From: Chelativorans multitrophicus
GTDB taxonomy: Bacteria; Pseudomonadota; Alphaproteobacteria; Rhizobiales; Rhizobiaceae
Reading direction: 5' to 3'
DNA length: 64,000 nt
NCBI RefSeq assembly: GCF_011317445.1
Contig: NZ_JAAAPL010000001.1
Span: 434,001 to 498,000, forward strand
The notes under the pieces: model-generated
Database searches by the model: none
What the model was told of the DNA's origin: nothing
What the model saw: only the letters and a program-made list of their open reading frames with translations
In this document: positions 25,408-60,732 of the stretch, piece after piece
How positions within the stretch are numbered: the first letter of the stretch is position 1
How the letters are laid out: each line of letters begins with the position of its first letter
Position numbers and translations under genes: made by a program

Positions 25408-26511
25408 TTACACAGCCTGGCTTTCTGCAACGAACTTCGCCAAGGCGAGAGAGGATGTCAGGCCGGGCGACTCGATGCCGAAGAGGTTGATCAATCCGGT
25501 GACGCTGTGTGCCCGTGGACCTTGAACGAGGAAATCCTGAACCGCCACCTCCGGCGGCACGATCTTCGGCCGGATACCCGAATAGGCCGGAAGCAGCGCT
25601 CCATCCTTCAGGTCGGGGAAATACCGGCGCACCCCGGCATAGAACAGCTCGGCCTTGGCGGGGTCGACCGCGTAGTGGAGGTTGTCTACCCATTCGATGT
25701 CCGGGCCGAAACGCGCCTGTCCGGCAAGATCGAGCGTCAGGTGGATTCCAAGGCCGCCTTTGACCGGAACAGGGTAGATGAGCCGCGAGAAAGGCGCCTT
25801 GCCGGCAAGCGAGAAGTAGTCGCCCTTGGCAAGGTATTCCTTCGGCACAAGCTGCGCGGGCATTCCTTCGATGCTCCGCGCCAGCTTCGGCGCGGAAAGC
25901 CCCGCGGCATTCACGAACAGGCGGCAGGAGAGCGTTGTGGGATCGGACCCGCCGATATCGAGCACGATGCCCTTATCGGTCACTCTCCCCCGCTCGACCG
26001 GGCTGTTTAGAACGAGGACGGCGCCGGCGCTTTCCGCGTCTCCCAGCAGCGACACCATATAGGCATGGCTGTCGATGATGCCCGTCGACGGGGACAGTAA
26101 TGCTCCGGCCGTCGCCAGCGCCGGTTCGAGGGAGCAGGCTTCGGATTCGGTGAGCTGCCTCAAATCTGCAACGCCGTTCCGTTCCGCCTTTGCGGCAATT
26201 GCCGGCAGTTGCTCCAGTTCGGCCTTGGACGTCGCGACGATCAGCTTTCCGCATTGCCGGTGCGGTATATCGCGCTCTCGGCAATAGGCGTAGAGCAGTT
26301 GCCGCCCTTCCACGCAGAGGCGCGCCATGAGGCTATCGGCCGGATAGTAGATCCCGGCATGGATGACCTCGCTGTTTCGCGATGAGGTTTCGCTGCCGAT
26401 TGAGCCTGCGGCCTCAAGAATGATGACTTCGCGCCCCATCGACGCCAAAGCACGCGCGACTGCGAGCCCGATCACACCCGCACCGGCAACGACACACTGA
26501 ACTTCCTCCAT
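25408..26511 (-). CDS. FAD-dependent oxidoreductase (LhgO-like)
   Basis: A 367-residue DAO-fold flavoprotein. [20 protein letters not shown] binds [21 protein letters not shown] and the late YSGIRPKIV are typical of L-2-hydroxyglutarate oxidase-like enzymes, which oxidise 2-hydroxy acids to 2-oxo acids. It is the last gene of a leftward operon with a D-2-hydroxyacid dehydrogenase and a 6PGDH-like dehydrogenase. It may supply the L-specific counterpart in hydroxyacid oxidation. The true substrate is unknown. It is probably membrane-associated but lacks TM helices. Confidence 0.85.
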
Positions 26512-26543
26512 GGGGGTCCCCTAGCGCGGGATTGGACGCAGCG

Positions 26544-27476
26544 CTAGGCTACCCGGGAAACGAGCTCGCCATTGGCAAAATGCGCCTTGAGGTTATTCGA
26601 AATGCGCTGCATCGCCGCCGAGACGGTTTCCGGCGAGCGGCCCGCCATGTGCGGTGTGATGATCAGGTTTGGCGCTTCAAGCAATTCCTGGGTGACGTTC
26701 GGCTCGCCCGCCACCACGTCGAGGGCAGCGCCCGCGATCCGCTGCTCATGAAGCGCCTTGACCAGCTCGTCCGTATCCACGATGGAACCGCGGCCTATAT
26801 TGATGAGGAATCCCTTGGGCCCGAGCGCATCCAGGAATTCGCGGTTCACGATGCCTTTCGTGCCTGGTCCTCCAGGCGTGGCGATCACGATGAAATCGCT
26901 GTCGCGCGCGAGCTCGAGCGGCGAGGCCTTATATTCATACGGCACATCGCTTCGCTTGTTTCGGTTGTGGTAACGGATCTCCATGTTGAAGCCTAGGGCC
27001 CGCTCCGCGATCTGCAGGCCGATTTCGCCCAGCCCCAAAATGCCCAGACGCTTTTGATAGGCAAGCGCACGCGGCCCGCGGGACTTGAGCCACAACCCGT
27101 TGCGGACCTGCCGGTCCGCCCAGGATAGGTTGCGCGCGATCCCGAGGAGAAGCGCCATCGCGTGGTCCGCGACGGAGGACGCATTCGTCCCCTTACCTGT
27201 GCACAGGATCAATCCGAGCTCTTTCACCGCCGCAAGGTCGACATTCTCATGGCCGACCCCTTGCGTGTGCACCAATTCCAGCTTTCTGAGCCGGCGGAGC
27301 TGGTCTCCCGTCACACCGATCGAGCCATTCGTGACCAGGGCGCGCGTGGCGGGATACGCATCGATCGCCTTTTCGAACTCCTCAGGCGAAGGCGCATAGT
27401 GGACGACAAAATCTTCCTCCAAAAGCTTCAGCCCGGCGGAAGGCAATGGGATCCGCACCATGACCTCCGGTCTCAT
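26544..27476 (-). CDS. D-2-hydroxyacid dehydrogenase
   Basis: A 310-residue NAD(P)-dependent dehydrogenase. The Rossmann motif is GILGLGEIGLQIAERA, followed by a basic YHNRNKRSD that favours NADP. The catalytic Arg is in INIGRGSIVD, the Glu in VVAGEPN and the His in ITPHMAGRS. It reduces or oxidises a 2-oxo/2-hydroxy acid pair. Its ATG overlaps the stop of the upstream 6PGDH-like gene (ATGA). It is clearly paralogous to the enzyme at 31440-32378, sharing LLEEDF..YYAP/HYAP openings. Confidence 0.9.
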   Translation of the reverse strand: MRPEVMVRIPLPSAGLKLLEEDFVVHYAPSPEEFEKAIDAYPATRALVTNGSIGVTGDQLRRLRKLELVHTQGVGHENVDLAAVKELGLILCTGKGTNASSVADHAMALLLGIARNLSWADRQVRNGLWLKSRGPRALAYQKRLGILGLGEIGLQIAERALGFNMEIRYHNRNKRSDVPYEYKASPLELARDSDFIVIATPGGPGTKGIVNREFLDALGPKGFLINIGRGSIVDTDELVKALHEQRIAGAALDVVAGEPNVTQELLEAPNLIITPHMAGRSPETVSAAMQRISNNLKAHFANGELVSRVA

Positions 27477-28375
27477 GCCGCCTTCTCTCCCGCATTGCCG
27501 CCTGCCGCAAGCGCGGCCAACATCTCCGGATACTCCTTATCGAACGGGAGGCCCGACGCCTTGAGCTTTTCATACGAGCCGCCGATCGTCTGCGCGATCG
27601 CGGTCGACAAAATGGGCTTGAGCCCAAGGCTTTCGAGAGTGGCGGCGGCTTCCTTCATCTCCGTCACCCGGCGGGCGCCGTGCTGCTGCGTGCGGCCGAT
27701 GTAATAGGTGGCCGTCTGCCGCCAGTCGAGCCCGGGAAAGGTCTGCGAGATCGAATCGATTATGCGCTCGCGCACCCCCGCTTTCTCCGCCGCGGTAAGA
27801 CTTTCGAGCAGGAGCGCCTCGATGCCCTTCACGAGGATTGAGCGGATCATCTTCACCGCACAAGCTTGGCCGATCTCGGTCCCGACAGCCTCGATATCCA
27901 TTCCCGCGCCGGTCAGGATCCTTGCCGCGCGCTCCGCCTCCCCTCCGGCCAGGAGGATCGGCACCTTGTGCTCGTAAGGCGGCACGCGCGCCATGACGGC
28001 GCCTTCGACGAAGTCCGCATCGCCTCCCCTGGCCAGCGCCTCGCCCACCCTCTTCTTGGCGTCCGGCCCGATGGAGTTAAGGTCGATGAAGACCTGTCCC
28101 TTCCTCAGATGCTTGCCCGCATCCTCTCCCACTTTAACCGCCGCCGACCCCACTACGAGGGAGAGCACGACGTCCGCACCCGCGACCGCCTCTACCAGGC
28201 TGGTGCAGGCCTTTACTTTCCGCGCCTCCGCCCGGCTCTTGAGATCAGGCGCTTGAGCGGCATCCGCGAAACGGAGGTCGAAGGCGGAAAGCCCTTCCAC
28301 CGAGGGCTCCTTGCTCAGGCCCATTGCCATGGCCTGCGCGGCTTCGCCGAAGCCGATGAAAGCGATGTTCGTCAT
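27473..28375 (-). CDS. 6PGDH-like dehydrogenase with DUF1932
   Basis: A 300-residue beta-hydroxyacid-dehydrogenase-type protein. The N-terminal NAD(P) domain opens IAFIGFGEAAQAMAMGL. FIDLNSIGPDAKKRVGE precedes the catalytic Lys in GQACAVKMIRSILVKG. The C-terminal part (LDWRQTATYYIGRTQQHGAR) is the DUF1932 domain. It is the first gene of the leftward operon at the 28.4-kb divergent promoter. The substrate is a 3-hydroxy acid by family, otherwise unknown. A close paralogue is encoded at 57373-58257. Confidence 0.87.
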   Translation of the reverse strand: MTNIAFIGFGEAAQAMAMGLSKEPSVEGLSAFDLRFADAAQAPDLKSRAEARKVKACTSLVEAVAGADVVLSLVVGSAAVKVGEDAGKHLRKGQVFIDLNSIGPDAKKRVGEALARGGDADFVEGAVMARVPPYEHKVPILLAGGEAERAARILTGAGMDIEAVGTEIGQACAVKMIRSILVKGIEALLLESLTAAEKAGVRERIIDSISQTFPGLDWRQTATYYIGRTQQHGARRVTEMKEAAATLESLGLKPILSTAIAQTIGGSYEKLKASGLPFDKEYPEMLAALAAGGNAGEKAA

Positions 28376-28444
28376 TGATGCTCCTGTTTTTCAACGACCG
28401 TTCCTGGGCCCGTCAATCCGGCCGACCAAGCCCCGCATCCACTC

Positions 28445-28476
28445 TTGTATTTTTCTGTCGACCTTTGTATTCAAAG
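28445..28476. promoter_or_regulatory. GntR-type operator candidates, divergent promoter
   Basis: Between two divergent operons, TTGTATTTTT (28445-28454) is followed by the near-palindrome CTTTGTATTCAAAG (28463-28476). The second has arms CTTTG/CAAAG and resembles the TTGTATACA motif seen in the other island promoters, with one central base changed. Confidence 0.5.
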
Positions 28477-28536
28477 AAAGACAGGCCTGCAAGATTGCGG
28501 CTGGCGAAAAGTGCGTCGGCGCCGAGGGAGGAACGA

Positions 28537-29331
28537 ATGCATGCGAATCTTTTGAAGCACAGGCTCGGCTCTGGCGAGCCGACATTCGTTTTCTCGGTGC
28601 GCATGGCGCGCACGGTCAACATCGTCTCGATGGCGCAGGCGGCGGGCTATCACGGGCTTTATGTGGACCTGCAGCACAGCTCGATCTCGATCGACACTGC
28701 CGCGCAGATCTTCTCCACCGCCCTGCACAGCGAGGTGACGGCCTTCGCGCGCGTGCCGAGCCTGGAGCCGGGGCTGGTATCACGCGTGCTCGATGCGGGC
28801 GCCCAGGGCATTCTCGCTCCCGATATCCGCTCGGCCGCCGAGGCAAAGGCACTGGTCCAGGCAGCGCTGATTGCGCCCAAGGGCGACCGCTCCGTCGGCA
28901 GCGGCATCCCCAATCCGCGTTTCAAAGGCCTTTCGGGTGGCGCACTGGCCGCCGCCATCAACGATGCTACCTTGCTCATCGCCATGATCGAAACCGAGGA
29001 GGCGGCAGAGAGGGCTGGGGAAATCATCGGCGTCGACGGCATCGACGCAATCCAGATCGGCAGCAATGATCTCACCACCTCCATGGGCATACCTGGCCAA
29101 TACAAGCACGATCGGGTCCAGACAGTCTATGGAAAGGTTATCGCCGCCTGCAAGGCCGCCGGAAAACCCCTGATCATCGGCGGCATCCGCAAGAGCGATG
29201 AACTGGAGCCATATGTGCGGATGGGTGCCTCGCGCTGCTACTTTACCGGCGCGGACACCAACTTTTTGATCGAGGGGGCAATGAAATTCATGGCCGAGGC
29301 GAAAGCCGCCGACGCCGCGATCGTCGGCTGA
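28537..29331 (+). CDS. HpcH/HpaI-family aldolase
   Basis: A 264-residue class II aldolase with a TIM-barrel. YHGLYVDLQHSSISID carries the Asp/His active-site strand. VTAFARVPSLEP supplies the phosphate/carboxylate Arg. IAMIETEEA contains the metal Glu. IQIGSNDLTTSMGIPGQ contains the metal Asp. Family members split 4-hydroxy-2-oxo acids into pyruvate or oxaloacetate plus an aldehyde. GGAGGAACGA precedes the ATG at 28537, and longer frames reach only into promoter DNA. It is the first gene of a rightward operon followed by tctC; a paralogue lies at 49779. Confidence 0.88.
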   Translation: MHANLLKHRLGSGEPTFVFSVRMARTVNIVSMAQAAGYHGLYVDLQHSSISIDTAAQIFSTALHSEVTAFARVPSLEPGLVSRVLDAGAQGILAPDIRSAAEAKALVQAALIAPKGDRSVGSGIPNPRFKGLSGGALAAAINDATLLIAMIETEEAAERAGEIIGVDGIDAIQIGSNDLTTSMGIPGQYKHDRVQTVYGKVIAACKAAGKPLIIGGIRKSDELEPYVRMGASRCYFTGADTNFLIEGAMKFMAEAKAADAAIVG

Positions 29332-29362
29332 ACATCACGACAAACATGACCGGGAGGAACTG

Positions 29363-30316
29363 ATGAAAACGATTTTCTTGGCTGCAGGCGCCGCGGCGCT
29401 TGCACTCTTTGCGACCGCGGCTTCCGCCGAATATCCCGAGCGTGCGATTACCGTGGTCAATCCGAACTCGGCAGGCGGCGGCACCGATGTCGGCATCCGC
29501 ACATGGCAGCCCTATGTGGAAGCCTGCCTCGGCCAGGGCGCCGTGCTCGTGCCGACGGCGATGCCCGGCGCTGCCTCAGCGGTGGGTATCACCGCGCTCG
29601 CCAAGGCCGCGCCGGACGGCTACACGATCGGAATGGCGAACATGCCGAACCTGGTGACGAACAATCTCTCCAAGCCGGATCAACCGTCCTTCGAGGACTT
29701 TGAGTGGCTCGGCAACATCATCGGCGTGAATTCAACGCTCAATGTGCGCAAGGACAGCAAGTTCCAGACACTCCAGGAAGCGATCGACTACATCAAGGGC
29801 AGTTCCACCCCGATTAATGTCGGCATGGGCGGCGTGGGCGCAGACGATCACCTTGCGGGTCTCCAGTTCCAAAAGCTGATCGGCGCCAAGCTCAACTTCA
29901 TTCCCTTCGGCTCGGGGGCGGATTCGCGCAACGCCCTTCTGGGCGGCCAGGTCGAGTTTTCCCTGATGTCGAACGTGGAAGCCGCCGGATTCCGCGATGA
30001 AATCCGTCCGCTCGCAATTGCCGCGGAGACGCGCTCCGAGCTCTTCCCGGAGGCTCCCACATTCAAGGAACAAGGGATCGACCTGGTGGGTGGATCCACC
30101 CACGTCATCGGCGCACCGAAGGGCTTCCCCGAGGAGGCGCTGGCAAAATGGCGTGAGTGCATTCAGGTCGCCGGCAAGGACCCGAAGTTCCTTGAAGACG
30201 CAGAGAAGCGCTCGCTCTCGCTGAATGTGATGACGGCCGAGGAAACCGAAGCCTTCATTCGCGCCCAGCACAAGGCCCTTTCTGAGCTTTGGGCAAGCGA
30301 CCCCTGGATCAAGTAA
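29363..30316 (+). CDS. TctC-type receptor (TTT transporter), copy 1
   Basis: A 317-residue periplasmic binding protein of the Bug/TctC family. The signal peptide ends SAEYPE. The mature part shows AITVVNPNSAGGGTDVGIRT, the carboxylate-binding loop, then VGADDHLAGLQFQKL, and ends LWASDPWIK. It should hand a carboxylic acid to a TctA/TctB pair. The only such pair is encoded at 38.5-40.5 kb in the opposite direction. A strong GGAGGAACTG ribosome site precedes it. A terminator follows. Confidence 0.92.
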   Translation: MKTIFLAAGAAALALFATAASAEYPERAITVVNPNSAGGGTDVGIRTWQPYVEACLGQGAVLVPTAMPGAASAVGITALAKAAPDGYTIGMANMPNLVTNNLSKPDQPSFEDFEWLGNIIGVNSTLNVRKDSKFQTLQEAIDYIKGSSTPINVGMGGVGADDHLAGLQFQKLIGAKLNFIPFGSGADSRNALLGGQVEFSLMSNVEAAGFRDEIRPLAIAAETRSELFPEAPTFKEQGIDLVGGSTHVIGAPKGFPEEALAKWRECIQVAGKDPKFLEDAEKRSLSLNVMTAEETEAFIRAQHKALSELWASDPWIK

Positions 30317-30350
30317 CCCGGCTTGGGCGAGGTCCTTCGATGAGGTGTTA

Positions 30351-30384
30351 GCCGCCGCTGGCTGATCCAGCGGCGGCCTTTTTC
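30351..30384 (+). terminator. Rho-independent terminator
   Basis: A perfect 11-bp stem GCCGCCGCTGG/CCAGCGGCGGC with a five-base loop, then CTTTTTCTC. It separates the aldolase-tctC transcript from the hydratase gene 15 bases downstream, which must rely on readthrough or its own promoter. Confidence 0.88.
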
Positions 30385-30398
30385 TCGCAGAGGTTACA

Positions 30399-31181
30399 AT
30401 GGACAGCGAAATCGAAACACTCGTTGACCGGATTCAGGGCCGGATATCAGGCCGAGAGCCCTGGAAGGACGTGCTGGAGGACCAGCCCGGCCTCAGCGAC
30501 GAGGATGCCTACCGCATCCAGTTCGCGCTGATCCGCCGGCTTGCCGCCGCAGGAGATCGCGCAGTAGGCTACAAGGCCGCCTATACAAGCGCCGCCGTCC
30601 AGGCTCAACGCGGCAATGGCGGCCCCATTGCCGGCGCTTTCCTGCAGTCGGGATTTCTGCCGGAAGGCGAGCCGATCGCCATCGTTCCGGAGCGTCGCAA
30701 CGCGGTGGAGCCGGAAGTGGCGATCCTTCTCGGCGCCGATCTTCCCGGGCCGCAGGTGACGCCGCTCGATGTCCGGCGGGCGGCCGCCCTCCTGCTGCCG
30801 GCCATCGAAGTGGCGGTCGGCGCGCCCGGCGATCTGAAGCGCAGCCGACAGATGGTCATTGCCACCAACAAAACCGCCGGCAGCGTTATCGTCGGCGGGC
30901 CGGGCCGCGCGCCGGACGGGATCGATCTCAGGCTAGAAGGATGCGTGATGACGATCAATGGCAGCCCGGCCGGGTCTGCCACGGGCGCGGAAGTAATGGG
31001 CGATCCTTACAATGCCGCCGCCTTTATCGCCAATACCGTGCTTGCGAATGGCGGGATGCTCACAGCCGGTATGATTCTGATGACCGGCTCAATCATCGCC
31101 GCGGTGCCGATCGAGGCAGGCGACGACGTGCGCGCCGAGTTCACGCGGCTGGGGAGCATTCATATCCGGTTTGCGAGGTGA
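30399..31181 (+). CDS. 2-keto-4-pentenoate hydratase-like protein
   Basis: A 260-residue MhpD-type protein of the fumarylacetoacetase superfamily. Landmarks are DEDAYRIQFALIRRLAAAGD, AVGYKAAYTSAAVQ, NAVEPEVAILLGADLPG with the metal-binding Glu set, and MTGSIIAAVPIEAGDDVRAE. Such enzymes hydrate 2-hydroxydienoates to 4-hydroxy-2-oxo acids, the substrate type of the HpcH/HpaI aldolase encoded just upstream, so the two could act in series. It lies immediately after a strong terminator. Confidence 0.85.
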   Translation: MDSEIETLVDRIQGRISGREPWKDVLEDQPGLSDEDAYRIQFALIRRLAAAGDRAVGYKAAYTSAAVQAQRGNGGPIAGAFLQSGFLPEGEPIAIVPERRNAVEPEVAILLGADLPGPQVTPLDVRRAAALLLPAIEVAVGAPGDLKRSRQMVIATNKTAGSVIVGGPGRAPDGIDLRLEGCVMTINGSPAGSATGAEVMGDPYNAAAFIANTVLANGGMLTAGMILMTGSIIAAVPIEAGDDVRAEFTRLGSIHIRFAR

Positions 31182-31200
31182 GTGGCTAGTGGCTGGCCGT

Positions 31201-31431
31201 CCCCTCACTTGCAATTTCTAACACTTAGCCTTCGGCTAAGATGTTGAGATCGCTTTCTCTCCCACAAGGGGAGAGATATGGGTCGCCTACGCTTCCATAA
31301 GCCGCCAAGATCAGCGACTGGCAGCGAGGGTAATGCCAGCGTTATCTCTCCCCTTGTGGGAGAGAAAGCGTTTTCCTGCATCTGCGAGCGGGCTTTTACC
31401 CGAGCACGTGCTTGGAAACGCAAGAGAGGGG
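31201..31431. repeat. MITE-like intergenic element, copy A
   Basis: A 231-bp non-coding element between two convergent genes. Its ends are related to each other as inverted repeats: CCCCTCACTTGCAATTTC at the left and CAAGAGAGGGG at the right, next to CTAACACTTAGC and GTGCTTGGAAACG boxes. The same end boxes occur in reverse orientation at 52574-52717. The middle holds a perfect 27-bp inverted repeat (31251-31277 and 31344-31370) around a 66-base spacer. It encodes nothing recognisable. Confidence 0.65.
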
Positions 31432-31439
31432 AATTTTGG

Positions 31440-32378
31440 TCACGCTATCCGGTGCACGATATCTCCCTTCCCGAAGAAATGCGCCTTCAGGTTCTTGGAT
31501 ATCTGCCGCCTGGCAAAGACCACCGCTTCCGGGGAGCGGCCGCCGATGTGCGGGCTGAGGATCACATTCGGTGCGCCGGCCAACTCCGGCGAAATCACCG
31601 GCTCGCCTTCCCAGACATCCAGGCCGGCGGCGGCGATAACCTTTCCATGCAGCGCCTCGACGAGTGCTGCCGTATCGACCACGCTGCCGCGGCCGACATT
31701 GATGAGAACACCGGATGGGCCCAGCGCTGCCAGCACGTCGCGGTTGACCAGGTGGCGCGTTTCCTCTCCGCCCGGGCAGGAGATGATGAGGATGTCGGAG
31801 GCTGCGGCGAGTTCCCTGGTTGTGGAATAGTATTCGTAGGGGGCGCCTTCGCGGGGCCTGCGATTGTGGTAGAGCACGGTGGCTTCAAAGGCTTGGACGC
31901 GTTTGGCGACGCCCAGACCGACCTCCCCGAGCCCGACAATGCCGACACGCTTTTCGAAGATCAGAGGGCGGGGATAGCGTGCTTCTTCCCAGATACCCGA
32001 GCGAACCGCCCGCTCCGCTGCCGGAATGTCGCGCAGGACCGCCAAAAGCAACCCCAGAGCTTGCTCTGCCACCGAAAACGCGTTCGTGCCGGCATTGTTG
32101 GCGACGATGATCTTTTTCTCCCTTACCGCTTCCATGTCGATCTTTTCGTAGCCGACGCCGACGGTATGGATCATTTCCAGATGGGGAATCGCGCGAATCT
32201 GATCACCGGTGAGACCGATGGACCCGTTGGTGACAACGCCTCGTGTCGTGGCGCCATGCTCGCGGATTGCCTTTTCGAGCTCTGGAAGCGTGGGCGCATA
32301 ATAGACAGTGAAATCCTCCTCCAAAAGCGCGATGCTTTCGGGCGGAAAGGGCACACGGACAATCACCTCGGGTTTCAT
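31440..32378 (-). CDS. D-2-hydroxyacid dehydrogenase
   Basis: A 312-residue enzyme of the D-isomer family. The Rossmann loop is GIVGLGEVGLGVAKRV followed by YHNRRPREG, suggesting NADP use. Catalytic residues are Arg in INVGRGSVVD, Glu in WEGEPV and His in LSPHIGGRS. It is the last gene of the leftward operon beginning at 35596 (two tctC genes, an enolase-superfamily enzyme, then this). It is a paralogue of 26544-27476. ATG 32378 has the better-placed GGGGAA; 32384 is an alternative. Confidence 0.9.
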   Translation of the reverse strand: MKPEVIVRVPFPPESIALLEEDFTVYYAPTLPELEKAIREHGATTRGVVTNGSIGLTGDQIRAIPHLEMIHTVGVGYEKIDMEAVREKKIIVANNAGTNAFSVAEQALGLLLAVLRDIPAAERAVRSGIWEEARYPRPLIFEKRVGIVGLGEVGLGVAKRVQAFEATVLYHNRRPREGAPYEYYSTTRELAAASDILIISCPGGEETRHLVNRDVLAALGPSGVLINVGRGSVVDTAALVEALHGKVIAAAGLDVWEGEPVISPELAGAPNVILSPHIGGRSPEAVVFARRQISKNLKAHFFGKGDIVHRIA

Positions 32379-32412
32379 GAGCATTCCCCAACTGCGTAAT
32401 AACTGAGCAAAA

Positions 32413-53520: not shown

Positions 53521-53541
53521 GGCGGCTTGCCTTTCCTAAAA

Positions 53542-53584: not shown

Positions 53585-53597
53585 ACCTAAACCGAAT

Positions 53598-53621
53598 GCA
53601 TAGAGCGCGTGCGCTCTATGC
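53598..53621 (-). terminator. Hairpin overlapping the ALDH stop
   Basis: The perfect stem GCATAGAGCGC/GCGCTCTATGC (53598-53621) includes the last codons and stop of the ALDH gene. No T-run follows. It may slow transcription into the SDR gene or stabilise the ALDH mRNA end. Confidence 0.5.
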
Positions 53622-55052
53622 GGTGATCTTTTGAGATACGAATTTCGTGATCATGAAGGCGTCGAGAGTTTCGTACCCGCCCTCCCGGCCATAGCCGCTT
53701 TCCTTCACGCCGCCAAAGGGCGTGTCGGCCTGCGACGTGCCGAAATGGTTGAGCGACATGATACCGCTTTCCACCCGATGGGCCAGTTCGTGCGAATAGG
53801 CCTGGGAGTTGGTGAAGGCATAGGAGCAGAGCCCGTAGGGCAGACGGTTGGCGATCTCGATCGCCTCCTCGAACTCACGGAAACGGACCACGGGGGCAAT
53901 CGGCCCGAACGGCTCGACATTTACCACGTCGGCATCGTCCGGAACGTCCGTCAGAACGGTCGGCTCGAAGAAATAGCCGCGATTGCCGATGCGTTTTCCG
54001 CCCGTTGCCACCGTCGCGCCCTTAGCCCTGGCGTCGGCCACCAGCTCTTCCAGCGCCCTCAGCCGGCGCGAATTGGCAAGTGGTCCCATCTGCGTGTCCG
54101 CTTCGAGCCCGTTGCCGACCTTGATGGCACTCGCCGCCTTGACGAAGCTTTCGACGAAAGCGTCGTGCGCCTTCTCCTGGATGATGAACCGGGTCGGCGC
54201 CGTGCATATCTGCCCCGCATTGCGGAATTTGGCGGCAACTGCCTGCCTGGCGATCTTGTCGGCATCGACATCGTCGAACACGATGACCGGCGAGTGACCG
54301 CCGAGTTCCATCACCACGGGCTTCATCGCCTCCGCCGCGAGCTTGGCGAGGTGCTTGCCCACCGGCGTGGAGCCGGTGAAGGTAATGGCGCGGATTACCG
54401 GCGAAGCGATCAGATAGGCCGAGATCATCGAGGATTTGCCGGAGACGATGTTGATGACCTCGGGCGGCAGTCCGCCGTCGAGCAGGCACTGGACCAGCGC
54501 GCAGGTCGCGGCCGGAGTTTCTTCAGAGCTCTTGATGATGACGGAACAGCCCGCACCCAGCGCGCCGCCGAGCTTGCGACCGGGCGACGAGATCGGAAAG
54601 TTCCATGGCGTGAACGCGGCCACAGGGCCGATCGCCAGCTTGATGCCGTAGCGATTGAAACCGGGATCGCTCGGCACGATCGTGCCATAGGCGCGCCGGC
54701 CCTCATTCGCGTCCCATTCGATGATCGAGGCAGCGCGGATGATCTCAAGCCTCGCCTCCTCGACCGGCTTTCCCTGCTCGATCGTGATCAACGGCGCGAT
54801 TTCGGCTGCCCGCTCTCGCAGGATCCGGCAGCCGCGCATGATGATGTCGCAGCGCTGCTCGGCGGAGAGCTCCTGCCATTCCCGGAAACCGCGCTGCGCC
54901 GACTGAAGGGCGCGGTCGAGGTCGGCTTCCGTTGCCGAGGGCAGCATCGCAATCACCTCTTCCGTCGCAGGATTGATGACCTCCTTCGGCTCACCGGACC
55001 CCTTGGTCCATTCACCGCCGATCAGCATCAAGGGTGCCTTGTACGTCGCCAC
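53616..55052 (-). CDS. NAD(P)-dependent aldehyde dehydrogenase
   Basis: A 478-residue aldehyde dehydrogenase closest to the succinate-semialdehyde/glycolaldehyde group. TPWNFPISSPGRKLGGALGA starts the cofactor region. Lys174 in IIKSSEETP contacts the cofactor, Glu249 in VMELGGHSP is the general base, and Cys283 in FRNAGQICTAPTRF is the nucleophile. It lies downstream of the second split ThDP decarboxylase, so it is well placed to oxidise the aldehyde that enzyme releases to the acid. Confidence 0.92.
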   Translation of the reverse strand: MATYKAPLMLIGGEWTKGSGEPKEVINPATEEVIAMLPSATEADLDRALQSAQRGFREWQELSAEQRCDIIMRGCRILRERAAEIAPLITIEQGKPVEEARLEIIRAASIIEWDANEGRRAYGTIVPSDPGFNRYGIKLAIGPVAAFTPWNFPISSPGRKLGGALGAGCSVIIKSSEETPAATCALVQCLLDGGLPPEVINIVSGKSSMISAYLIASPVIRAITFTGSTPVGKHLAKLAAEAMKPVVMELGGHSPVIVFDDVDADKIARQAVAAKFRNAGQICTAPTRFIIQEKAHDAFVESFVKAASAIKVGNGLEADTQMGPLANSRRLRALEELVADARAKGATVATGGKRIGNRGYFFEPTVLTDVPDDADVVNVEPFGPIAPVVRFREFEEAIEIANRLPYGLCSYAFTNSQAYSHELAHRVESGIMSLNHFGTSQADTPFGGVKESGYGREGGYETLDAFMITKFVSQKITA

Positions 55053-55117: not shown

Positions 55118-55708
55118 TCAGCTCCTGCCAAGCAAGGCGCGGCGGAACTGCATCTTCTGGAACACGCCGTCTCGGTTGCGGGGAAAGAGCGGACCGACCT
55201 CGTTGCTGACCTTAAGCAGCGCGAAGACCGGACCGGGCGCCCTGCGGATCAGTGGCGTCGCCTCTTCCAATTCTGCCGATGTGCGGATCGTGCGCACAAC
55301 AGGAAATTGACAGCCGATCGCCACACCCGCAAGGTCTATGCCGCGGCCGGTGTGGGTGCGCTGCATGCCGGTCTCGGCATAGTGCTCATTGTCGATCACC
55401 ACGATGGCCAGATTGTCCGGCTTTTCCGCTCCGATGGTGGCGAGCGAACCCAGGCTCATCAGCATCTCGCCATCCCCCGCGAACACGATCACGCGGCGCT
55501 TTGGCTGCGAAAGCGCGAGGCCCAGGCCGGTCATCGTCGCCTGCCCCATGGCTCCGCCCAGCGGAAAATCCTGCTCGAAGTCCACCTGGATGGCAGCCAC
55601 GTCGTAGGAGGGCCCGCCGAGCGAAGAGACGGTGAGCGTATCGCCACGATCAGCCAGGATGCGCTTCACGGCCTCGCGGCGGTTGAGGGTGTTCTCGGTC
55701 ATGGGCAT
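55118..55708 (-). CDS. ThDP decarboxylase, pyrophosphate-binding subunit (pair 2)
   Basis: A 196-residue ComE-like C-terminal half. LGGAMGQATMTGLGLALSQP leads to the ThDP/Mg motif VIVFAGDGEMLMSLGSLATI ending at IDNEHYAETGM. It begins one base after the stop of its partner gene. It is the second split decarboxylase of the island; the substrate presumably differs from pair 1 at 37.3-38.5 kb. Confidence 0.87.
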   Translation of the reverse strand: MPMTENTLNRREAVKRILADRGDTLTVSSLGGPSYDVAAIQVDFEQDFPLGGAMGQATMTGLGLALSQPKRRVIVFAGDGEMLMSLGSLATIGAEKPDNLAIVVIDNEHYAETGMQRTHTGRGIDLAGVAIGCQFPVVRTIRTSAELEEATPLIRRAPGPVFALLKVSNEVGPLFPRNRDGVFQKMQFRRALLGRS

Positions 55709-55709: not shown

Positions 55710-56237
55710 TCACTTGAAAACCTTGGCGCCGATCAGGCGCTGAGACAACAGGACGGCAATCGCCTGCTGAGCGGAAAAGGCCATGGCGAGGCCGGCACGC
55801 ACGGTCTCCTCCACGTCCCCGGCCGTTTCGGCGCGCAGGCAGATCATGCCCATCTCCTCCAGAACCGGCTTCACGCTCTGCCCCATCGGGATCTGCCAGG
55901 CGTTTGTCTCGCCGAAATCGCCGCGCATGGTGACGAAGGTGATGAAGGGTATCTGGCAGTTCCTCAGGAGCGACAGCGCATTGATGCAGTTGCCCACACC
56001 GCTCGATTGCATGAGGAGCGTGCTGCGCACGCCGCCGAGCCAGGCTCCGGTCGCAAGTCCGACGCCGTCCTGCTCCGTGGTGAGCGAGATCGTGCGCATA
56101 TCGGGATCGTCGATGCAGTATTGGATGAGCTGCTTATGGCCGCCGTCCGGCACAAAGGAGACCTGCGCCACCTTCGCTTCTTTCAGGAGGCGGTAGATCG
56201 TGTGCGGCCATGCCGCCTGGCTCTGTTCGTCCGACAT
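55710..56237 (-). CDS. ThDP decarboxylase, pyrimidine-binding subunit (pair 2)
   Basis: A 175-residue ComD-like N-terminal half. The catalytic Glu lies in LTTEQDGVGLATGAWLGG (pair 1 has REEEAVG there), followed by LLMQSSGVGNCINALSLL and TMRGDFGETNAWQIP. It is the first gene of the leftward operon alpha, beta, ALDH, SDR and is divergent from the second beta-propeller gene across an operator-bearing promoter. Confidence 0.87.
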   Translation of the reverse strand: MSDEQSQAAWPHTIYRLLKEAKVAQVSFVPDGGHKQLIQYCIDDPDMRTISLTTEQDGVGLATGAWLGGVRSTLLMQSSGVGNCINALSLLRNCQIPFITFVTMRGDFGETNAWQIPMGQSVKPVLEEMGMICLRAETAGDVEETVRAGLAMAFSAQQAIAVLLSQRLIGAKVFK

Positions 56238-56343: not shown

Positions 56344-56378
56344 TTGTATACGCGCGTCGACTATAAAATACAAGTATT
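56344..56378. promoter_or_regulatory. GntR-type operator, divergent promoter
   Basis: ATTGTATACGCG (core 56346-56351) is followed 16 bases on by the inverted repeat AATAC-AA-GTATT (56367-56378). Both sit between divergent operons and match the GTATAC motif of the island. Confidence 0.6.
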
Positions 56379-56401: not shown

Positions 56402-57358
56402 ATGACAGTCGTCTTGGGAAACGGAGAATACCGCTTCAAGGTCGAGCGCGGCTGGGGCCGCTTGCCGGACGGGTGGTCGTTGAACGAAGTCGCCGGCGTG
56501 GGCGTCGACGCCAAGGACCGCGTCTATGTCTTCAATCGCGGCGAACACCCGATGGTCGTGTTCGACCGCGAGGGGAATTTCCTGACCTCCTGGGGCGAAG
56601 GCGTTTTCACCCGCCCGCATGCGGTGCATATCGGGCCGGACGACACGATCTTCTGCACCGACGACGGCGACCATACCGTGCGCAAATGCACGCTCGATGG
56701 CAAGGTGCTGATGACGATCGGCGTGCCCGGCGCTCCCTCCCCTTATATGAGTCTAAGGCCGTTCTGCCGCTGCACCCACACGGCCTGCGCGCCCAATGGG
56801 GACATTTTCGTCTCGGACGGCTATGGCAATGCGTGCGTGCACAAATACACGCCCGACGGCCGTTATCTGAAAAGCTGGGGCTCGCCGGGTACGGGTCCTG
56901 GGCAGTTCAGCCTGCCGCACAACATCACCTGCGATGCGGACGGCTGGGTTTATGTGGCGGACCGCGAGCTCCACCGCATTCAGGTCTTCGACAGCGAAGG
57001 CCGCTACGAGACCCAGTGGAACAACCTGCATCGCCCGAGCGCGCTTTACATGCCGCCCGGACGGTGCCCCCTTTGCTATGTGGGTGAGACAGGGCCGACC
57101 ATGAGCGTCATCCGCAACGTGCCCAATCTCGGCGCACGCATCAGCATCCTCGATAACAAGGGCAATCCGCTGGCCCAGCTCGGCGGGGAGCATGCCGGCA
57201 ACGGTCCGGGCGAATTCATGTCTCCGCACGGGATCGCGGTCGATTCGGAAGGATCGATCTATGTCGGCGAGGTCGCGCGTACGGCTTGGGGCCATATGAA
57301 TCCCGGCAAGCCCGTGCCCGAGCCGATCCACGTTCTCAGCAAATTGACCAGGCTCTAG
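56402..57358 (+). CDS. PAL-like NHL beta-propeller protein, copy 2
   Basis: A 318-residue six-bladed NHL propeller, strongly similar along its whole length to 50576-51562. Shared segments include PDDTIFCTDDGDHTVR, RCTHTA, VSDGYGNACVHKYTPDGRYL, DGWVYVADRELHRIQVFD and CPLCYVGETGP with a CxxC pair. No signal peptide. GGGAGGAGC precedes the ATG. It starts a rightward operon with a 6PGDH-like dehydrogenase and a PrpF-type isomerase. Duplication within one island argues for a metabolic role on two related substrates. Confidence 0.82.
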   Translation: MTVVLGNGEYRFKVERGWGRLPDGWSLNEVAGVGVDAKDRVYVFNRGEHPMVVFDREGNFLTSWGEGVFTRPHAVHIGPDDTIFCTDDGDHTVRKCTLDGKVLMTIGVPGAPSPYMSLRPFCRCTHTACAPNGDIFVSDGYGNACVHKYTPDGRYLKSWGSPGTGPGQFSLPHNITCDADGWVYVADRELHRIQVFDSEGRYETQWNNLHRPSALYMPPGRCPLCYVGETGPTMSVIRNVPNLGARISILDNKGNPLAQLGGEHAGNGPGEFMSPHGIAVDSEGSIYVGEVARTAWGHMNPGKPVPEPIHVLSKLTRL

Positions 57359-57372: not shown

Positions 57373-58257
57373 ATGAAACTTGCGTTCATCGGTTTCGGCG
57401 AGGCCGCGCAGGCGATGGCGCTCGGCTTCAAAGCCGAAAGGAGCCTCGAGCGGCTTTCCGTCTACGATATTCGCTCCAATGATCCGGCGCAGGCGCCGGT
57501 ATTAGAGGCCAAGGCAGCGGAGCTGGATGTCTTCCTGGCGCCGTCGGCCGCCGAGGCAATCAACGAATCGCCCATCGTGCTCTCGCTCGTGCAGGGTTCA
57601 GTGGCGGTGAAGGTGGCTGAATCGGTGGCGCCGCTTCTTGCCGAGGGGCAGATCTATATCGACCTCAATTCCGTCTCCCCTGATACCAAGCGCCGCGTGG
57701 CGGATGTCATCGCTGGAGGAGGCCGCGGAGATTGTGTCGAAGGCGCGATCATGGATGCCGTCCGGCCGAAGAACCATAAGGTGCCCATCCTGCTTGCCGG
57801 CCCCCGCGCGGGCGAAGCGGCGGACAAGCTGAATGCAGCCGGTATGAACAGCGAGGCGATCGGCGAGAATATCGGGCAGGCCTGTGCCGTAAAGATGATC
57901 CGCAGCGTGATGATGAAGGGCGTGGAAGCGCTCATCCTCGAAAGCATGGTCGCGGCGGAAACGGCGGGTGTCACGGAGCGCATTCTCGATTCGGTGAACA
58001 CCACCTTCAAAGGCCTCGATTGGCGCCAGCTCACCTCGCATTACCTAAAGCGGACCCATGAGCATGGCGCGCGCCGTGTATCGGAGATGAAGGAATCCGC
58101 CGCGACGGTAAAGGGCCTTGGGCTGGAGCCTTATATGTCGACCGCCATCTCGGAGAGGATCGCGGACGGCTACGCCAAGCTCTCCAAAGTGCCCTATGAT
58201 CCAAAGGCGCAATACCCCGAACTCCTGAAAGTGCTGACGGACAAGGGCGGAACGTGA
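57373..58257 (+). CDS. 6PGDH-like dehydrogenase with DUF1932, copy 2
   Basis: A 294-residue paralogue of 27473-28375. LAFIGFGEAAQAMALGFKAE binds NAD(P), IYIDLNSVSPDTKRRVADV follows, the catalytic Lys is in GQACAVKMIRSVMMKGVEAL, and the C-terminal DUF1932 domain includes GLDWRQLTSHYLKRTHEHGA. The ATG at 57373 lies 14 bases after the propeller gene stop. It likely acts on a hydroxy acid made or consumed by its operon neighbours. Confidence 0.87.
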   Translation: MKLAFIGFGEAAQAMALGFKAERSLERLSVYDIRSNDPAQAPVLEAKAAELDVFLAPSAAEAINESPIVLSLVQGSVAVKVAESVAPLLAEGQIYIDLNSVSPDTKRRVADVIAGGGRGDCVEGAIMDAVRPKNHKVPILLAGPRAGEAADKLNAAGMNSEAIGENIGQACAVKMIRSVMMKGVEALILESMVAAETAGVTERILDSVNTTFKGLDWRQLTSHYLKRTHEHGARRVSEMKESAATVKGLGLEPYMSTAISERIADGYAKLSKVPYDPKAQYPELLKVLTDKGGT

Positions 58258-58305
58258 CGTTCACCGTCAATGGTTGAGCCCAGACCGTGCTCCAAGGAGG
58301 AGGTC

Positions 58306-59481
58306 ATGAACAGGATGCAGGAAATCCGCACGCCGGATCAGATCGCGATCCCCGCCGTCTTCATGCGCGGCGGCACATCGAAGGCGATCGTCTTCCACGC
58401 GCGCGACCTGCCGGAGAGCCGGGAAGCGCGGGATCGGATTTTCCTGGCAGCAATGGGCTCGCCCGACCCCAATGAGCGGCAGTTGAACGGCATGGGCGGC
58501 GGGCTTTCCTCCCTGTCGAAGGTCTGCATCATCGAGCGTTCCAAGGCTCCGGGCGCCGATATCGACTACACTTTCGGGCAGGTGGAGGTCCTTGCAGCAC
58601 GCGTCGACTACAACGGCAGTTGCGGCAGCATGGCTTCCGCCATGGGCCCCTTTGCCATAGACGAAGGGCTCGTCGAGGCGCCTGCCGATGGCGAGGCGGT
58701 CGTGCGCATCCGCGACGTCAACGCCAACAAGATCATTGTTTCGCGGTTTCCAACGCGCGGCGGCAAGGCGGCCGTCCGTGGAGACTTTGCCGTGGACGGC
58801 ATTGCCGGCACGGGCGCTCCGGTCAGGCTGGAGTTCCAGGCGCCAGGCGGAGCGCATACCGGAAGCCTGCTGCCCTTGGGCGGCATCACCGACACGGTTG
58901 AGGTGGCCGGCATCGGCCGGATCGACTTCAGCTTCGTCGATGCGGCCAATCCGGTCATGTTCGTGGATGCGGAGGCGGTTGGGCTCACCGGGACGGAACT
59001 GCCGGAGGAAATCGAAGCCAAACCCGGCTTCCTCGACCGGGTCGAGACGATCCGCCGTCATGTGACGGTCAAGGCCGGTGCCGCACCCGATCTTGCGGCC
59101 GCCGGCGCCGTATCGTTGCCGCGCATCGCCTTCGTCGCGCCGCCCAAAGCGTATACGGCCCTTTCGGGCCAGCCCTTCCGATCCGACCAGACCGATATTC
59201 TTATCCGCATGATCGGCAGGGGCCGGCCACACCGCGCCGTTCCGATAACGACGGCGCTTTGCCTTGCCGTCGCCTGCCGCTTGCCTGGCAGCGTGCCGAA
59301 CAGGATGTTGAGCGGGCAAGCAAGGGACGGCGGCGATATCATCGTTGGCCATCCCAGCGGAGCATGGTCGATTGCCGCGACGGTTCGGGAAACGCCGGAT
59401 GGGCCCTATGCCGAGATGGCGGGTACCATCATGACCGCGCGCCGGCTCTTCCAGGGCGAAGTGCTGGTTCCGCGAGAATAG
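58306..59481 (+). CDS. PrpF/4-oxalomesaconate tautomerase family isomerase
   Basis: A 391-residue double-barrel isomerase of the PrpF family. PAVFMRGGTSKAIVFHARDL is the N-terminal signature with the catalytic Lys. YNGSCGSMASAMGPFA holds the catalytic Cys. The C-terminal half repeats the fold. Relatives isomerise 2-methylaconitate or aconitate (PrpF) or tautomerise 4-oxalomesaconate (GalD/LigU). The ATG at 58306 has an AAGGAGG site; the frame from 58270 is rejected. With the RraA-type aldolase at 43.6 kb it could form an oxalomesaconate-like route. Confidence 0.9.
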   Translation: MNRMQEIRTPDQIAIPAVFMRGGTSKAIVFHARDLPESREARDRIFLAAMGSPDPNERQLNGMGGGLSSLSKVCIIERSKAPGADIDYTFGQVEVLAARVDYNGSCGSMASAMGPFAIDEGLVEAPADGEAVVRIRDVNANKIIVSRFPTRGGKAAVRGDFAVDGIAGTGAPVRLEFQAPGGAHTGSLLPLGGITDTVEVAGIGRIDFSFVDAANPVMFVDAEAVGLTGTELPEEIEAKPGFLDRVETIRRHVTVKAGAAPDLAAAGAVSLPRIAFVAPPKAYTALSGQPFRSDQTDILIRMIGRGRPHRAVPITTALCLAVACRLPGSVPNRMLSGQARDGGDIIVGHPSGAWSIAATVRETPDGPYAEMAGTIMTARRLFQGEVLVPRE

Positions 59482-59640: not shown

Positions 59641-59653
59641 AATAGTATACAAA
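59641..59653 (+). promoter_or_regulatory. GntR-type operator before tctC copy 5
   Basis: AATAGTATACAAA carries the GTATAC core (59645-59650) in a 300-base intergenic region otherwise without coding signal. AAAATACGAAAG follows 15 bases on. It suggests tctC copy 5 has its own controlled promoter. Confidence 0.55.
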
Positions 59654-59781
59654 CGTCTACAATAAAATACGAAAGAGATTCGATAGGCCGCCGCCACAGC
59701 GCGCGGTCACGGAGAGGTTTTCGCACGGGCCGAAGAATCGGCCCGGCAAGGGAGGGTCAACTCGCTTCTTGGGAGGAACCG

Positions 59782-60732
59782 ATGCGAGCAATATGTGCAA
59801 TGGCGTCTTTCGTGGCGGCGGCCGGACTTCTCGTCCTTCCCGCCCATGCCGAGTATCCTGAAGGCCCGATCACCTTCATTGTGCCCTATTCACCGGGAGG
59901 GGGCACGGATATCGGGGTACGCACCTGGCAACCCTATATGGAACAGTGCCTGGGCGGAACGATCGTCGTGCAGAACAAGCCGGGAGGCGGCGCGATCCTG
60001 GGCATGGCCGAGCTCGCAAAATCGTACCCGGACGGCTACACGCTCGGCAGCACCAACACGCCCAATGTCTACACGAACGCGATTTCCGGGGAGGTGCCGT
60101 GGCAGTTGGACAGTTTCGTCTTTCTCGGGGCGCTGGTCGGCGGCCGAAGCACGATCGTGGTGCGCGAAGACAGCCCTCTGCAATCGGTGGCCGACCTCGT
60201 GCAGATGGCAAAGGACAAGGGCGGCGCGGTCAATGTGGGGATGTCGGCGCTGGGCGGCGACGACCATTTCATGCTGATCCAGGTGGCGAAGGCAACGGGG
60301 CTGAACTTTACCTATATTCCCATGAACGACTCGCCCACGGTCCGCAACGCCCTGATGGGCGGGCATATCGACATTACCGCCATGTCCCACGCCGAAGCGG
60401 CGACGCTCAAGGGCTCGATCCGGCCGATCTCGGTCGCCAGCGAGGAGCGGGTCGAGCTTTGGCCCGAGGTGGCGACCCTGAAGGAGCAGGGCTATGACGT
60501 CGTCTCCGGTTCCAACCATGTGATCTCCGCGCCCAAGGGCATTCCCGAGGAGGTGGAGCAGAAATGGTCCTCCTGCCTTCAGGAGGTGGGAAAGAACCCG
60601 GATTTCATCGCCGATGCCAAAAAGCGATCCGTTCCCCTGGTCGTCATGAGCGCGGACGAGACCAGGAACTACATTACAAAGGACGACACTTTCCTGCGGG
60701 CACTTTGGGCGGAGGATCCCTGGATCAAATAG
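59782..60732 (+). CDS. TctC-type receptor (TTT transporter), copy 5
   Basis: A 316-residue Bug/TctC receptor. The signal peptide MRAICAMASFVAAAGLLVLP ends AHAEYPE. Then ITFIVPYSPGGGTDIGVRTW, LGGDDHFMLIQVAKATGL and the end LWAEDPWIK. GGGAGGAACC precedes the ATG at 59782; the longer frame enters the promoter. It closes the island on the right. Confidence 0.92.
   Translation: MRAICAMASFVAAAGLLVLPAHAEYPEGPITFIVPYSPGGGTDIGVRTWQPYMEQCLGGTIVVQNKPGGGAILGMAELAKSYPDGYTLGSTNTPNVYTNAISGEVPWQLDSFVFLGALVGGRSTIVVREDSPLQSVADLVQMAKDKGGAVNVGMSALGGDDHFMLIQVAKATGLNFTYIPMNDSPTVRNALMGGHIDITAMSHAEAATLKGSIRPISVASEERVELWPEVATLKEQGYDVVSGSNHVISAPKGIPEEVEQKWSSCLQEVGKNPDFIADAKKRSVPLVVMSADETRNYITKDDTFLRALWAEDPWIK

Follow-up and report, generated by a model that had tools for sequence, protein, structure and literature searches.

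Does the long run of catabolic genes between positions 25408 and 60732 of the analyzed window (the whole 64,000-nucleotide stretch of the Chelativorans multitrophicus genome considered here; contig NZ_JAAAPL010000001.1, positions 434,001–498,000) constitute one metabolic system, or have independent operons gathered at the same place? This island contains 35 genes, as counted from gene orientation and Pfam scans of selected open reading frames (40 ORFs between positions 21930 and 63967); a sequence-only reading of the same DNA had counted about 29 and had proposed one organic-acid catabolic island. We find it fairly probable that the island, lineage-specific and approximately 37 kb long, functions as a single catabolic regulon directed at several related hydroxy- or oxo-acids of the di- and tricarboxylic type. 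The proposal of a single island is now stronger than the sequence-only reading could know, since a common GTATAC-type motif marks six promoters, one of them with a mismatched copy. The island is built from known families and resembles known clusters linked to tripartite tricarboxylate transporters (TTT), and it is more tightly organized than that reading saw. Its main value is as a test case for receptor sharing in TTT transporters.

GTATAC Motif and Candidate Regulon

The orientation of the genes, which are named here by their families, agrees with the four divergent and two single-direction promoters proposed previously. The divergent junctions are DUF1932_1/HpcH1, TctC3/ENO2, Ldh2/FAD2, and TPPN2/PAL2, and two additional one-way promoter gaps precede Glx and TctC5. 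A sigma-70 scan of positions 25000–44999 returned no promoter-like sites versus 4.5 expected. The hexamer GTATAC is present in five of the six promoters, namely TctC3/ENO2 (35693–35698), Ldh2/FAD2 (two sites, 41956–41961 and 42045–42050), the gap upstream of Glx (47149–47154), TPPN2/PAL2 (56346–56351), and the gap upstream of TctC5 (59645–59650). The sixth promoter, DUF1932_1/HpcH1, has the operator-like sequence TTGTATTCAA (28465–28474), which differs from TTGTATACAA by one mismatch.

Six of the seven GTATAC copies in the island are intergenic when corrected gene starts are used, with intergenic DNA constituting 8.2% of the island (binomial P = 2e-6). Among 180 hexamers of the same composition, GTATAC ranks first by the number of intergenic copies, the runner-up having three. 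Over-extended ORF starts had been corrected via Shine-Dalgarno sequences and family alignment for HpcH1, TctC3, ENO2, PAL2, DUF1932_2, and TctC5, and these starts were fixed before the motif was noticed. The count assumes a start at 60990 for the CLC channel gene, which affects the intergenic fraction and leaves the motif positions unchanged.

The island was found to encode a single regulator, a GntR/FCD protein (+, 46133–46894; PF07729, PF00392; the strand sign precedes coordinates here and below). Footprinting covered the fetched loci whose GntR is at least 42% alike; among loci with more distant GntR proteins, L133 alone was checked and has no site. The seven footprint loci (L194; L195 and L196; L288; L249–L251, which belong to the genus of the window) form approximately four independent groups with GntR proteins 42–53% alike. 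Each of their nine GTATAC sites is found where a TcuA, GntR, Ldh, or TctC gene begins. Eight of the nine are in gaps between gene calls, and the ninth (L196) falls within an over-extended call, 70 bases ahead of the start indicated by alignment; in L250, the site is spanned by the best GntR alignment, over a stretch taken as lying beyond the true start. A further cluster, in the alphaproteobacterial genome G075 (L142), had been fetched as a DUF1932 neighborhood, and all three of its GTATAC sites are 14–136 bases before a TctC gene, a TctC/TctB pair, and a thiamine diphosphate (ThDP) enzyme gene.

A study of the FadR subfamily (PMC4494728) gives the consensus of these regulators as NyGTM-N0-1-KACNy, with two bases between GT and AC in several groups. 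The island motif fits this consensus, and the regulator has the FCD domain (PF07729). The resemblance to FadR-subfamily regulons extends to the GT-(2 nt)-AC palindrome and presumably to carboxylic-acid effectors (PMC4494728). A literature search found nothing on the particular GntR group of the island or on its ligand. The GTATAC sites are putative targets of the single regulator, which would repress all operons until an acid or an intermediate binds to it. The placement of GTATAC in promoters, together with its recurrence at the same gene types elsewhere, suggests that this GntR/FCD protein probably controls the whole island as one regulon.

Several observations weigh against the reading of the island as one catabolic regulon. 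With mechanical longest-ORF starts, only three of the seven GTATAC copies are intergenic, and the P value is post hoc because the motif was first noticed by eye; the hexamer rank and the footprint are safer evidence. The DUF1932_1/HpcH1 promoter carries a one-mismatch copy only. The extended pattern TNGTATACNA occurs at 10 places in the 4.82-Mb genome (three of them island promoters) versus 26 for the backwards control pattern, so the motif is unenriched genome-wide and only its placement in the island is distinctive. GTATAC density in the footprint loci (9 in ~143 kb) is about twice the background of 0.034 per kb. No GntR homolog was seen beside the G075 cluster. The motif is absent from 8 of 12 further loci (L290, L226, L133, L287, L200, L193, L197, and L212), which include the Nitratireductor OM-1, Shinella WSC3-e, and Hydrogenophaga clusters, and occurs once each in L129, L130, and L210, at a distance from the cluster in the first two. 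Finally, only 3 of 29 scanned proteins pass an NCBIfam cut-off, TcuA alone naming a substrate, and the whole island set was found in none of the neighborhoods examined.

Five TctC Receptors and One TctAB Permease

All TTT subunits are present in the island, namely its sole TctA permease (−, 38533–40068; PF01970), TctB (−, 40069–40680; PF07331), and five TctC receptors (PF03401): TctC1 (+, 29363–30316), TctC2 (−, 33614–34570), TctC3 (−, 34646–35596; corrected start 35596), TctC4 (+, 47611–48558), and TctC5 (+, 59782–60732; corrected start 59782). The five receptors share 41–48% identity and form one clade (support 100/99; 100% of 200 bootstrap trees, with the bootstrap not fully settled at a correlation of 0.96), separate from the nine other TctC proteins of the same genome placed in the tree; the genome total is 16. 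This and the other trees were built from top hits only (59 TctC, 44 DUF1932, 36 HADH, 45 PAL, 28 TPPN, and 14 HpcH rows). The sisters of the island clade are the TctC proteins of L290 and L142, and of all loci fetched, these two carry the TctA most similar to that of the island (45–47%). At least four other TctA genes are located elsewhere in the genome. In a plasmid search, the best match to TctC5 reached 38%. The N-termini of the five receptors resemble signal peptides by eye, and two cysteines are common to all five and absent in three sister proteins; an additional disulfide is possible.

The reason for the presence of many TctC receptors per TctAB is an open question. A 2018 review (PMC5812351) describes TTT systems with more TctC receptors than TctAB permeases and treats the sharing of one permease by several receptors as an idea without evidence so far. 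The island is like the TTT/Bug systems with excess TctC outlined there, in that receptors outnumber permeases and lie amid catabolic genes. The extra TctC proteins of Bordetella are, in the same source, orphans without obvious membrane partners, whereas the island combines a five-receptor clade in one place with a TctAB whose relationships parallel those of the receptors and with a common operator-like motif. The five receptors would capture related acids and pass them on to the single TctAB. A set of five sister receptors with one permease at one locus, probably under one operator, makes the island a compact test of receptor sharing.

Insertion Site and Origins of the Genes

The gap between MgtE and LplA (23345–62653), which contains tRNA-Leu(GAG), is a spot where insertions vary from genome to genome in the genus. 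Six of the 15 same-genus genomes (G001, G003, G005, G007, G009, and G015) have the two genes 0.5–1.1 kb apart, on either side of the tRNA gene. The gap measures 7 kb in G004, holding a TRAP (tripartite ATP-independent periplasmic) transporter, an alcohol dehydrogenase, and UxuA, and 10 kb in G011, holding the adenine deaminase AdeD and a catalase; in the other seven genomes MgtE and LplA are farther apart or on separate contigs. AdeD (23541–25367 in the window) adjoins MgtE in G002 and G011 as well (92–93%), and the insert proper therefore starts at ~25370. The inserted block extends to ~62480, with tRNA-Leu at 62488, spans ~37 kb, and also contains the CLC channel gene. The island is thus a lineage-specific insertion relative to a near-empty site in relatives. 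PAL homologs were found in none of the 15 same-genus genomes (E 0.001). A mobile island of the integrative and conjugative element type, integrated at the tRNA gene, was rejected: no integrase was found among the 40 ORFs scanned by Pfam and there is no convincing att direct repeat, the 18 bases of the tRNA 3′-end matching at 13/18 positions in direct and 14/18 in inverted orientation, which is near chance in an ungapped comparison.

Copies of a palindromic repeat element, in opposite orientation, occupy the two convergent junctions in the island (31230–31430 and 52575–52656). The two copies are 87% alike over 83 aligned bases, the element folds far better than shuffled sequences (z −7.4), and the first copy has 21 matches in the genome, some of which overlap or represent the two strands of a single place. 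The element probably belongs to a rhizobial intergenic palindrome family, and its presence suggests a long residence of the island or its origin in a closely related organism.

The sequence-only reading had described the island as mirrored, duplicated modules. Duplication holds for part of the gene set: the trees indicate that the TctC set and the HADH1/HADH2 pair (53% identity; sisters, 100/99) grew in this way. The mirrored order was not seen, the order of paralogs across the island being neither mirrored nor collinear, and the trees recover no sister relationship within the pairs of PAL, HpcH, and split ThDP proteins. HADH3 (31–36% to HADH1 and HADH2) falls outside that pair and is the sister of an L024 gene (100/99). 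PAL1 and PAL2, 62% identical, pair as sisters in none of 200 bootstrap trees, and well-supported branches force two origins. The sister relationship is likewise recovered in 0% of bootstrap trees for TPPN1/TPPN2, with TPPN1 on a very long branch, and for HpcH1/HpcH2, with no well-supported branch forbidding it in either case, and in 13% for the two DUF1932 proteins. Identities are 56% for the DUF1932 pair, 30–35% for HpcH and the split ThDP halves, and 23% for the enolases. The remaining island genes seem to have been assembled from different sources. A recent block duplication was rejected on the lack of mirrored order, the separate origins of PAL1 and PAL2, and the 23% likeness of the enolases.

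These data bear on the alternative that the locus is a hot spot, where independent catabolic operons accumulated at the tRNA-Leu insertion site with no common pathway. In favor of such accumulation are the different cargo of the MgtE-LplA gap in other genomes (a TRAP transporter plus UxuA in one, a catalase in another), the failure to recover a sister relationship for the PAL, HpcH, or split ThDP proteins, and the absence of the full set from every examined neighborhood. Against it stand one operator-like motif at six promoters combined with one regulator, and five sister receptors that are distributed over the operons and accompanied by a single TctAB; we regard it as unlikely.

Gene Content and Predicted Pathway

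The proposed catabolic regulon, whose chemistry is deduced here from protein families, would proceed from uptake to oxidation, rearrangement, cleavage, and decarboxylation. The hydroxyl group would be oxidized, or the chain desaturated, by three D-2-hydroxyacid dehydrogenases, HADH1 (−, 26544–27476; PF02826/PF00389), HADH2 (−, 31440–32384; PF02826), and HADH3 (+, 48727–49755, from an alternative ATG start, the mechanical ORF start being 48691; PF02826); the malate/L-lactate/sulfolactate-type Ldh_2 dehydrogenase Ldh2 (−, 40677–41804; PF02615); two DUF1932 dehydrogenases resembling 6-phosphogluconate dehydrogenase (6PGDH), DUF1932_1 (−, 27473–28375; PF09130, PF03446) and DUF1932_2 (+, 57373–58257, corrected start 57373; PF09130); a DAO-family FAD oxidoreductase similar to L-2-hydroxyglutarate oxidase (−, 25408–26511; PF01266); and FAD2, a TcuA-type FAD-dependent tricarballylate dehydrogenase (+, 42092–43609; NF006130). 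Isomerization, dehydration, or hydration would be carried out by a PrpF/GalD-family isomerase (+, 58270–59481; PF04303), two enolase-superfamily proteins, ENO1 (−, 32413–33597; PF13378/PF02746; like PDB 2oo6, 375 bits) and ENO2 (+, 35754–36863, corrected start 35754; PF13378; PDB 1rvk, 197 bits), and an FAH-family 2-oxoacid hydratase/decarboxylase-like protein (+, 30399–31181; PF01557).

The HpcH/HpaI aldolases HpcH1 (+, 28537–29331, start corrected to 28537 by Shine-Dalgarno; PF03328) and HpcH2 (+, 49779–50552; PF03328; PDB 1dxe, 2-dehydro-3-deoxygalactarate aldolase, 114 bits), together with a protein similar to RraA and to 4-carboxy-4-hydroxy-2-oxoadipate (CHA) aldolase (+, 43637–44401; PF03737), may perform aldol-type cleavage to pieces of pyruvate or oxaloacetate size. 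Two split ThDP decarboxylases and one full-length ThDP enzyme of the PRK08199 subfamily (+, 44398–46068; NF006052) would decarboxylate 2-oxoacids. The split enzymes consist of the N-terminal halves TPPN1 (−, 37917–38465) and TPPN2 (−, 55710–56237; both PF02776) and the C-terminal halves TPPC1 (−, 37315–37914; PRK06163 type) and TPPC2 (−, 55118–55708; both PF02775). An aldehyde dehydrogenase (ALDH; −, 53616–55052; PF00171) would oxidize the aldehyde produced by decarboxylation. The island also encodes two PAL-like NHL propellers, PAL1 (+, 50576–51562) and PAL2 (+, 56402–57358, corrected start 56402; both PF01436), a DUF4440/SnoaL-like protein (+, 36897–37268; PF14534), the glyoxalase-superfamily protein Glx (+, 47188–47586; PF00903), an EamA-family transporter (+, 51562–52539; PF00892), and a short-chain dehydrogenase of the SDR family (−, 52738–53520; PF13561).

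Pfam confirmed every repeated family that the sequence-only reading had named (three D-2-hydroxyacid dehydrogenases, two DUF1932 proteins, two HpcH/HpaI aldolases, two enolase-superfamily proteins, two split ThDP pairs, two PAL-like propellers, and five TctC) as well as PrpF. The full-length ThDP enzyme, the TcuA-type flavoprotein, the Ldh_2 dehydrogenase, RraA, and the single TctA/TctB pair had gone unnamed.

The NCBIfam scan covered 29 of the 35 island proteins (all but the five TctC and TctA), and a cut-off is exceeded by three of these proteins among the matches listed. FAD2 scores 611 bits with the TcuA model NF006130 (cut-off 369), a second model, TIGR02485, giving 270.8 (372.55); the full-length ThDP enzyme scores 820.7 with NF006052 (539); and TPPC1 scores 369.7 with NF004813, the PRK06163 model (240). 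Sub-threshold scores were obtained for the PrpF protein (prpF 303.9 and oxalomesaconate (OMA) tautomerase 298, both under cut-offs of ~440), RraA (88.7 under 179 and 81.6 under 304.5 with LigK-type/CHA aldolase models), the DAO oxidoreductase (NF008726, 199.7 under 299), ALDH (439.5 under 646.35 with the succinate-semialdehyde dehydrogenase subfamily model), and the FAH-family protein (dmpH and dmpE models). A search confined to the 35 island genes revealed no TcuB-type Fe-S gene. Judging from the motifs retained in PAL, DUF1932, and the split ThDP proteins, with both split enzymes preserving the GDG...N cofactor motif, these enzymes look intact.

A bolder version of the regulon proposal is possible, and we put it forward tentatively: one GntR/FCD repressor would control a complete, self-contained pathway for polycarboxylic acids undescribed as a growth substrate, with five receptors from one ancestral TctC feeding one TctAB, and with DUF1932 dehydrogenases (next to oxalomesaconate-type tautomerization) and free-standing PAL-type lyases taking part. 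The substrate class is possibly new to science; if so, the island would represent an extra carbon route for soil and rhizosphere bacteria.

DUF1932 and PrpF Neighborhoods

DUF1932 matches were found in 38 of 384 other genomes of the class (E 1e-30), and 37 neighborhoods of up to 20 kb were compared, with G276 left out at a contig end. The 17 control regions are arbitrary stretches of DUF1932 genomes only, a 1.6-kb one having been dropped. GalD/PrpF occurs in 16/37 neighborhoods versus 0/17 controls (P = 0.0009), GalB in 11/37 versus 0/17 (P 0.011), and CHA-aldolase/RraA in 15/37 versus 2/17 (P 0.057), and PAL occurs in none of the 37. GalB, CHA aldolase, DUF1932, and GalD stand together in seven Rhizobiaceae loci (L130 and L233–L238), with TctA/TctC between these genes in five of them.

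With L129 added, these DUF1932-TTT-GalD operons resemble the island in having a DUF1932 protein 52–54% alike to DUF1932_1, a PrpF-family tautomerase, and, in six of the eight, TctA/TctC. They have no PAL, split ThDP, enolase, or HpcH genes in the stretches examined, unlike the island, and GalB is present in all seven loci in which it was sought (L129 being the eighth). The island might also be read as a lower pathway of the gallate/protocatechuate 4,5-cleavage type (GalBCD/LigJKU), acting on oxalomesaconate and CHA acids. The DUF1932 neighbors and the seven Rhizobiaceae loci speak for it. GalB and a ring-cleavage dioxygenase are nevertheless missing from the 35 island genes, PrpF and RraA score below the OMA tautomerase and CHA aldolase cut-offs, and the island RraA lies in a different operon, with TcuA and the ThDP enzyme. 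We consider this assignment quite improbable.

The gene association of DUF1932 with GalBCD across Alphaproteobacteria is a functional lead for the DUF1932 family, and proximity to 4-oxalomesaconate/CHA genes gives a lead on the role of the dehydrogenase. Three clear DUF1932 matches among solved structures all have no assigned function, the closest to DUF1932_1 being 4ezb, an ‘uncharacterized conserved protein’, and a literature search on the name DUF1932 found no on-topic paper. Lys175 is conserved in 64/64 proteins and is presumably the position of the catalytic lysine of beta-hydroxyacid dehydrogenases. The DUF1932 protein of the same-family genome G759 is nearly identical to that of Sinorhizobium sp. 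K101, which makes Rhizobiaceae, as GTDB defines the family, the likely host family.

Related Clusters in Other Genomes and Plasmids

The whole-island search used PAL, DUF1932, TPPC2, and FAD2 as anchors in genomes and DUF1932, TPPC1, TPPC2, ENO1, FAD2, HADH1, PrpF, and TctC5 in plasmids. For the family-level set, 20 genomes were taken from the 101 others with hits, namely 16 of the top 17 and four of the same genus; the FAD2 and TPPC2 sets contain 20 neighborhoods each, drawn from the higher-ranking entries of far longer lists. The sequence-only reading had stated that no described pathway combines this set. A literature search, covering listings and the beginnings of abstracts, likewise found no paper on the whole gene set, but large subsets co-occur on Shinella and Hydrogenophaga plasmids.

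The cluster on the Shinella sp. WSC3-e plasmid (L133) shares with the island TcuA (62%), split ThDP (53%), TTT, ALDH, RraA, HpcH, and GntR, and includes a 6PGDH-type dehydrogenase that is not DUF1932. The Shinella sp. HZN7 plasmid cluster (L288) shares PrpF (51%), GntR (52%), TTT, Ldh, HADH, RraA, and TcuA, as well as GTATAC upstream of a TcuA/AcnA pair, Ldh, and TctC. Unlike the island, both carry aconitase, TcuB, MmgE/PrpD, or CoA-transferase genes, neither has PAL, DUF1932, or a five-receptor set in the stretches examined, and L133 has no GTATAC. The Hydrogenophaga BPS33 plasmid has TcuA, PrpF, HADH, and several TctC, with no annotated TctA in the stretch. The G075 cluster combines a sister TctC pair, TctA (47%), TctB, DUF1932 (40%), ALDH, ThDP, and its three GTATAC promoter sites, but has two receptors rather than five, and no PAL, PrpF, or HpcH was seen there. 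DAO homologs (57–58%) lie beside split ThDP genes in 3 of the 20 TPPC2 neighborhoods; L212 counts for split ThDP by selection, since it was chosen for the adjacency of the two genes in the FAD2/TPPC2 lists. A DNA search of plasmids with positions 47000–54999 returned 483 records, none covering more than 80% of the query, and in the 12 of them listed the coverage is of the aldehyde dehydrogenase only. The partial overlaps suggest a gene guild reshuffled between clusters.

Decarboxylases and PAL-Like Propellers

A 3-sulfolactate pathway, with an SlcHFG-like TTT, ComC/SlcC dehydrogenases, and a ComDE decarboxylase, has in its favor the presence of Ldh_2, TctBA, and ComDE-like halves in one operon and the precedent of SlcHFG, named in the 2018 review as the known TTT for sulfolactate (PMC5812351). 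We rejected it as highly improbable on failed family cut-offs and the Xsc result. The ComD model TIGR03845 gives 100.7 (TPPN1) and 118 (TPPN2) under 147.95, the ComE model TIGR03846 gives 155.6 (TPPC1) and 122.6 (TPPC2) under 221.5, the L-sulfolactate dehydrogenase model NF040650 gives 210.2 under 500 for Ldh_2, and the Xsc model gives 244.4 under 676.4 for the full-length ThDP enzyme; none of the 16 Xsc model matches in the whole genome exceeds 676.4 bits (SuyAB was not searched for). A pathway for tricarballylate alone agrees with the TcuA model yet explains few island genes and was also rejected.

A second ALDH and split ThDP set is present in the genome at ~751300–754000 of contig C1 (6295–8953 of L282). 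Its ThDP halves are 33–37% alike to TPPN1/TPPC1, and its ALDH is 50% alike to a Shinella ALDH.

PAL1 and PAL2 have the PAL fold, an NHL propeller with three histidines and a tyrosine, and are predicted lyases. Both retain the PH...SDGY...PH...DRE...PH motifs; PAL1 matches PDB 3fvz (PAL) over residues 51–201 (E 1.3e-21), SDGY and the first and second PH motifs can be aligned to this structure, and the third histidine, His277, is placed by its PH motif alone, outside the 3fvz alignment. His73, His173, His277, and Tyr141 agree in 84–86 of 86 homologs; we take the three histidines to be metal-binding and the tyrosine to be an active-site residue.

The PAL scan yielded at least 587 pattern matches and at least 444 confirmed relatives, of which the best 80 were examined with at most 10 kb on each side, many contigs being shorter. 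The co-occurrence of PAL, DUF1932, PrpF, and TctC, proposed previously as a check, is not conserved: DUF1932, PrpF, and split ThDP genes are absent from all of these best 80 of at least 444 loci, as PAL is from the 37 DUF1932 neighborhoods. TctC occurs in 18 of the 80, HADH in 15, and HpcH in 10; the differences from the 17 controls are not significant (HADH P 0.066, HpcH 0.20, TctC 0.18), and no association of PAL with these genes is therefore claimed. Within the same 80, PAL stands with ENO1-like genes (46–50%) in L063, L064, and L081, the second of which carries an ENO2-like gene (60%) too.

The retained PH and SDGY motifs and the conserved histidines and tyrosine would suit a pathway for N- or O-linked hydroxy-acid conjugates such as aminopolycarboxylates, in which the propellers cleave a hydroxyglycine-type bond, releasing glyoxylate, while the remaining enzymes act on the acids; with no hydroxyglycine-making monooxygenase among the 35 genes and with very varied contexts of PAL relatives (best 80 of at least 444), we hold this to be very doubtful.

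Outside the island, the window contains an ADP-ribosylglycohydrolase-family gene (6304–8394) amid ABC-transport and LacI-type regulator genes (5235–12531). At 13564–16553, a DctM-type permease is located beside an NMT1-like receptor, and we take this pair to be a second uptake system, of the TRAP-TAXI kind.

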